A stretch of DNA of 64,000 bases from an uncultured Blastocatellia bacterium (lineage in GTDB: Bacteria; Acidobacteriota; Blastocatellia; Chloracidobacteriales; Chloracidobacteriaceae): NCBI GenBank assembly GCA_937934745.1, contig CALGZC010000055.1, positions 1 to 64,000 on the forward strand, given 5' to 3'. A model generated the notes under the pieces. It saw nothing but the letters and a program-made list of their open reading frames with translations, had not been told where the DNA came from and did not search any database. The translations under genes and the position numbers were made by a program. Each line of letters opens with the position of its first letter. Position 1 is the stretch's first letter. Positions 23,449-23,500 of this stretch are shown one piece after another.

Positions 23449-23500
23449 CGGCGCTTTAGCAGTTTTTAGCGTGGAGCAAGTTGCCTAAATCGCCACGTCA
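23449..23500 (-). ncRNA. SAM-II-like riboswitch aptamer upstream of metY
   Basis: mRNA ACGTGG-C-GATTTAGGCAACTTGC-T-CCACG-CTAAAAACT-GCTAAAGCGCC: P1 CGTGG/CCACG, GATTT, CTTGC and GCTAAA motifs in order and spacing, GGC/GCC pseudoknot pairing. Confidence 0.8.

Follow-up and report, generated by a model that had tools for sequence, protein, structure and literature searches.

The metY leader in the analysed window (the whole stretch of 64,000 nucleotides of acidobacterial DNA) carries what we identify from its sequence as a genuine SAM-II riboswitch, with SAM the presumed ligand on the basis of the residues that form the binding pocket. In Chloracidobacterium, this riboswitch probably serves as a transcriptional OFF switch for metY, metX and an aspartokinase gene. 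The RNA is ordinary in kind and belongs to a compact, widespread and under-annotated acidobacterial branch of SAM-II.

The metY leader contains a SAM-II aptamer

The aptamer, CGTGGCGATTTAGGCAACTTGCTCCACGCTAAAAACTGCTAAAGCGCC, occupies minus-strand positions 23497-23450, about 100 nt 5' of the metY start codon, and its assignment draws on sequence, the Rfam alignment, covariation and a lineage covariance model. An earlier reading of this DNA made from its letters (hereafter the sequence-only reading) had described P1, GATTT, CTTGC and GCTAAA here in the order and spacing of SAM-II. The leader it quoted matches the minus strand exactly, and each of these blocks was confirmed at its position there. 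The interval that it gave, 23449-23500, does hold the aptamer (P1, L1 and the P2 pseudoknot), but the feature runs on to a hairpin at 23430-23397, which lies between the aptamer and metY and was missing from that reading.

Within the aptamer, P1 is formed by CGTGG (23493-23497) and CCACG (23470-23474). GGC in loop 1 (23483-23485) pairs with GCC at the 3' end (23452-23450) as P2a, while P2b joins CTTGC (23476-23480) to GCTAAA (23455-23460), a segment that also supplies the SAM-pocket strand. The invariant GATTT (23487-23491) corresponds to the third strand of the SAM-pocket triplex. The crystal structure of SAM-II defines the triples of this pocket as G8-G42-C23, U11-A45-U21 and U12-A46-U20 (PMC3764141). 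When this numbering (that of 2QWY) is mapped by the order of the three blocks, GATTT contributes G8, U11 and U12, CTTGC contributes U20, U21 and C23, and GCTAAA contributes G42, A45 and A46. All nine pocket-triple bases are present in the window aptamer and are invariant across an alignment of 38 acidobacterial sequences.

Covariation argues for the same architecture. Acidobacterial relatives were collected by an RF00521 search of the phylum and a pattern scan of named genomes and were then aligned. Across ten P1, P2a and P2b pairs in the 38 sequences, 92.9% of cells are paired, versus 85.2% after shuffling, and this value drops to 32-41% when partners are slid by 1-3 columns. Two-sided changes occur in seven of the ten pairs. 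P1 shows compensatory changes in four of its five pairs, in an alignment where the pattern scan demanded GTGG/CCAC and ACTTGC and therefore limited P1 variation among the rows it contributed. The level of compensatory change seen in P1 and P2 across the phylum was reached by none of 500 shuffles. These comparative data indicate that the window element adopts an H-type pseudoknot with P1 and P2. Since all three P2a pairs are among those with two-sided changes, loop 1 does pair with the 3' end, as the sequence-only reading had proposed. The special status which that reading gave to GGC facing GCC does not hold, however: this is the commonest acidobacterial form, and the RF00521 consensus likewise has GGCC facing GGCC.

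A lineage-specific model recovers what Rfam scores below threshold

At the Rfam gathering score, the only match in the whole window is a tRNA, with no riboswitch match, and RF00521 (SAM_alpha) returns nothing from the element's own genome at the default E-value. Under relaxed limits, RF00521 gives the best match to the leader, at full length and 21.6 bits versus a cut-off of 36 (a curated threshold rather than a biological feature), and RF01726 (SAM-II long loops) gives the second, at 18.6 bits versus a cut-off of 44. Every conserved block matches in the RF00521 alignment. The score is low because the loops L1 and L3 fall short of the consensus length and because the model was built on other lineages.

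We therefore regard as more telling a covariance model that was built from other Acidobacteriota with all Chloracidobacterium sequences excluded. Run against the whole genome, this lineage model gives the window element 70.6 bits (E 1.3e-13), with a runner-up at 14.2 bits (E 3.75). The sequence-only reading had named an RF00521 score far below threshold as a result that would speak against it; such a score was indeed found, but the genus-excluded model places the same element firmly among SAM-II RNAs. The second-best RF00521 position in the genome (C52:16473, 20.5 bits) is unmatched by the lineage model and was taken as a chance match. Searches with other SAM riboswitch profiles gave no SAM-I (RF00162) match in the genome at E-values up to 0.1 and no SAM-V match at E-values up to 10.

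SAM-II is widespread in one class of Acidobacteriota

A search of sister genomes, suggested by the sequence-only reading, found the element at the orthologous place in all seven sampled Chloracidobacterium genomes, where the aptamer is nearly identical and the remainder of the leader is variable. The metY region of one of them (G297, L055) aligns with the window just as that of the public record Chloracidobacterium sp. CP2_5A (L086) does, which places the host in Chloracidobacterium (class Blastocatellia, phylum Acidobacteriota). Seven more aptamers, from beyond the genus, sit 5' of close metY homologues (>70% identical). The accessible literature places SAM-II in alpha-, beta- and gammaproteobacteria, Bacteroidetes and marine samples (PMC1273637 among the sources). 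That the class reaches beyond the Alphaproteobacteria was borne out here in an additional phylum: the lineage model has matches in 48 of 297 sampled acidobacterial genomes and in 31 of the 32 sampled genomes of the window's own class, Blastocatellia (counted from the match table). SAM-II control of methionine synthesis thus appears near-universal in this class and scattered in other lineages of the phylum.

At its cut-off, RF00521 passes 25 of the 297 phylum genomes but misses all 14 that belong to the order, so the Rfam threshold overlooks the branch of SAM-II that contains Chloracidobacterium. Full-text literature searches, with most subscription journals outside their reach, found no report of SAM-II in Acidobacteria. 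Because 25 acidobacterial genomes score above the Rfam cut-off, matches probably already sit unremarked in databases. An alignment built from acidobacterial SAM-II RNAs would permit these genomes to be annotated.

Genes downstream of acidobacterial SAM-II RNAs

The gene behind the window aptamer was confirmed as metY, encoding O-acetylhomoserine sulfhydrylase (minus strand, 22035-23351, start ATG at 23351; TIGR01326, 686 bits versus a cut-off of 495). Its Shine-Dalgarno sequence, GGAGG (23360-23364), is kept in the genus and lies 85 nt past P2a. Next on the same strand are metX, encoding homoserine O-acetyltransferase (20815-21888), and an aspartokinase gene (19406-20818) that shares 4 nt with the 3' end of metX; both likely belong to a metY operon.

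Genes behind the relatives' aptamers are mostly of the methionine/aspartate family and include homologues of metY, metB/C, metH, metX, metK, thrC and aspartokinase. The most frequent gene directly behind an acidobacterial SAM-II is a threonine synthase homologue (TIGR00260; 34 leaders, e.g. L103, L043, L141 and L083, in a pattern-biased sample of leaders), which may be a sulfur-metabolism paralogue. It is followed by aspartokinase in L035 and by a short-chain dehydrogenase and a cysteine-synthase-like gene in L043. Two further leaders (L025 and L085) have SAM-II ahead of a short-chain dehydrogenase gene, and two others (L080 and L095) have it ahead of a ferredoxin nitrite/sulfite-reductase-like gene, a placement that would fit sulfate assimilation. 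A more ambitious proposal treats the compact acidobacterial RNAs as a functional branch of SAM-II in its own right, with a class-wide aspartate-family regulon that takes in the threonine synthase homologues, some members having a shifted ligand preference or graded tandem action; we consider this very unlikely.

A terminator-like hairpin shares sequence complementarity with the SAM-pocket strand

The hairpin downstream of the window aptamer, CGCCCCGTACGC-TTTAGGCACA-GCGTACGGGGCG (minus strand, 23430-23397), has a predicted stability of -27.9 kcal/mol. Its stem is kept by compensatory changes within the genus, where the covarying sets include GTAC/GTAC, GCAC/GTGC and GCGC/GCGC, as well as CGCC/GGCG, TACC/GGTA and TGCC/GGCA. 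It is followed by the tail GATGACTTTG, a weak U-tract in which only three T stand in a row (23388-23390), displaced six bases from the hairpin, and a consensus terminator scan did not call the window hairpin. The 14-nt tail contains 4 T versus a mean of 7.6 in relatives, which makes it weaker than most. Among 87 leaders, the strongest downstream hairpin usually has a T run after it, and in relatives the counterpart of the window hairpin generally qualifies as a clear-cut intrinsic terminator. Two genus members (G165 and G123), for example, have a 16-pair hairpin stem that is followed by TTGCTTTTT.

A putative antiterminator links this hairpin to the aptamer. Its 5' strand, TGCTAAAGCG (23452-23461), overlaps the SAM-pocket strand and is complementary to its 3' strand, CGCTTTAGGCA (23411-23421), which lies inside the 5' arm and loop of the hairpin. 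A TTT[A/G] element is found near the hairpin loop in 57 of the 87 leaders. For aptamers ending in CTAAAG the hairpin mostly carries CTTT[A/G]G, and for aptamers ending in CTAAAC it mostly carries GTTT[A/G]G. In 44 of the 57 leaders, versus 25.7 expected by permutation (p below 5e-5), the nucleotide that precedes TTT can form a Watson-Crick pair with the one that follows CTAAA. When only distinct combinations are counted, the two match in 23 of 36, versus 11.6 expected; the test ignores shared ancestry. A covarying complement of the SAM-pocket strand within the terminator constitutes sequence evidence for communication between SAM-II and the terminator.

Folding predictions are consistent with a switch of this kind. 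For a nascent window transcript that ends before the 3' arm of the hairpin, the probability of the antiterminator pairs is 0.98-0.99, and it is 0.87 or higher throughout the genus apart from G299, where it is about 0.5. With the 3' arm included, the terminator is favoured over the antiterminator, and the minimum-energy fold of the full window transcript contains it. Because one strand forms both the antiterminator and P2b around SAM, the antiterminator and the SAM-bound aptamer are mutually exclusive. The leader thus appears to contain an expression platform that is incompatible with the bound aptamer, through which termination is predicted to occur.

Several relatives carry tandem SAM-II aptamers, spaced about 115-145 nt apart (L193, L025/L039 and L035/L071; by coordinates, G063:C128, G051:C64, G235:C91, G009:C14, G275:C24, G291:C84 and G046:C23). 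In the cases inspected, each tandem aptamer has its own terminator, as in G063 before thrC. Such arrays seem frequent in this class, though they are no novelty, 44 examples having been described already (PMC9481103).

A model for control of metY and its alternatives

We propose that RNA polymerase would start just upstream and make the aptamer first. When SAM is scarce, the aptamer 3' strand UGCUAAAGCG would be free to pair with the emerging CGCUUUAGGCA, and the resulting antiterminator would delay or block the terminator hairpin, allowing read-through into metY and switching methionine synthesis on. At high SAM, the P2 pseudoknot would instead form around the ligand and tie up the GCUAAA strand. 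With the pocket strand sequestered, the hairpin at 23430-23397 would fold, causing an early stop that leaves metY, metX and aspartokinase off. The basis of this proposal is comparative: an aptamer structure supported by covariation, its conservation at the orthologous place, a mutually exclusive pairing that covaries, and the gene context. By analogy with the SAM-II class, on which the direction of control and termination are modelled (PMC1273637; PMC9373788), we infer SAM as the ligand, genuine termination and the sign of regulation.

The alternative with the greatest claim to attention keeps the same aptamer but gives it a mainly translational output, alone or together with attenuation. The hairpin would bring CCGUGAA (23437-23431) to UUUACGG (23369-23363) and so mask the beginning of the Shine-Dalgarno sequence of metY. 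Folding of the whole leader places this long-range helix in the minimum-energy structure, and five of the seven genus genomes retain the complementarity, so that some translational control is a serious alternative. The weak, displaced U-tract also speaks for it, and SAM-II riboswitches with mixed outputs have been described (PMC9373788; PMC9481103). The pairing is nonetheless lost in G165 and G123, which have a good terminator instead, it has no visible link to the state of the aptamer, and relatives carry clear terminators. Because of the loss in those two genomes, we place mainly translational control second, as an unlikely reading compared with the transcriptional switch.

Two other readings concern the aptamer itself. 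Ligand changes between close variants are established for other riboswitch classes, and a SAM-II-derived aptamer could in principle have come to prefer SAH or another methionine-cycle compound. Since every published pocket triple is preserved here, without variation among the acidobacterial sequences, and methionine synthesis genes lie downstream, we judge such a shift highly improbable. Chance resemblance, with no functional RNA at all, could appeal to the RF00521 score lying under the cut-off, but its probability is vanishingly small: the lineage model matched a sequence held out of its construction, so the likeness to SAM-II is not due to chance, and conservation in every sampled genus member, together with similar elements before metY in relatives, points the same way. 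Covariation and the genus-excluded model in fact refute it. A transcriptional SAM-II switch thus remains the reading that we favour.

Comparison with characterized SAM-II and SAM-V riboswitches

The window element shares with described SAM-II RNAs (RF00521; Corbino et al., 2005, PMC1273637) the H-type pseudoknot with P1 and P2, the GATTT/CTTGC/GCTAAA core, methionine genes downstream, a near-consensus promoter upstream and a terminator between P2 and the gene. It differs from RF00521 in its shorter loops, its acidobacterial host and, in this species, its weak U-tract. RF01726 has the same fold and core, but the loops of the window element are short rather than long. The pocket of SAM-V and its pseudoknot fold are almost the same (PMC6061858); SAM-V acts translationally, however, with the Shine-Dalgarno sequence inside P2a, whereas the window GGAGG is well downstream, with the terminator-like hairpin in between. 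Another parallel is the SAM-II of Sinorhizobium meliloti metZ (PMC9373788), for which a SAM-induced intrinsic terminator is likewise predicted before a sulfhydrylase-type gene. That RNA comes from another phylum and differs in sequence, and a small terminated RNA has been observed there. On every criterion that the comparison allows, the window element is a SAM-II RNA, although it lies under the Rfam cut-off, and it belongs to an under-described lineage.

The promoter region upstream of the riboswitch

A sequence scan identified a sigma-70-like promoter upstream of the aptamer (minus strand, 23560-23531), with TTGACA (23560-23555) separated by an 18-nt spacer from AATGAT (23536-23531). The -35 hexamer TTGACA is the same in all seven genus genomes. 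Overlapping the -10 region is a direct repeat, CCGTCAT-N14-CCGTCAT (minus strand, 23547-23520), which has a 21-bp period and is followed by AACGGA. The repeat is kept in the genus, with one copy degenerate in G297, and takes the form CCGTTAT-N14-CCGTTAT in the sister genus (G300, L073). It looks like a transcription-factor operator and may provide a second layer of control. Its single match genome-wide is at the metY promoter, and it was set aside as a regulon motif. Directly upstream, a gene for a response regulator-histidine kinase hybrid (minus strand, 23557-24759) ends about 60 nt before the riboswitch.
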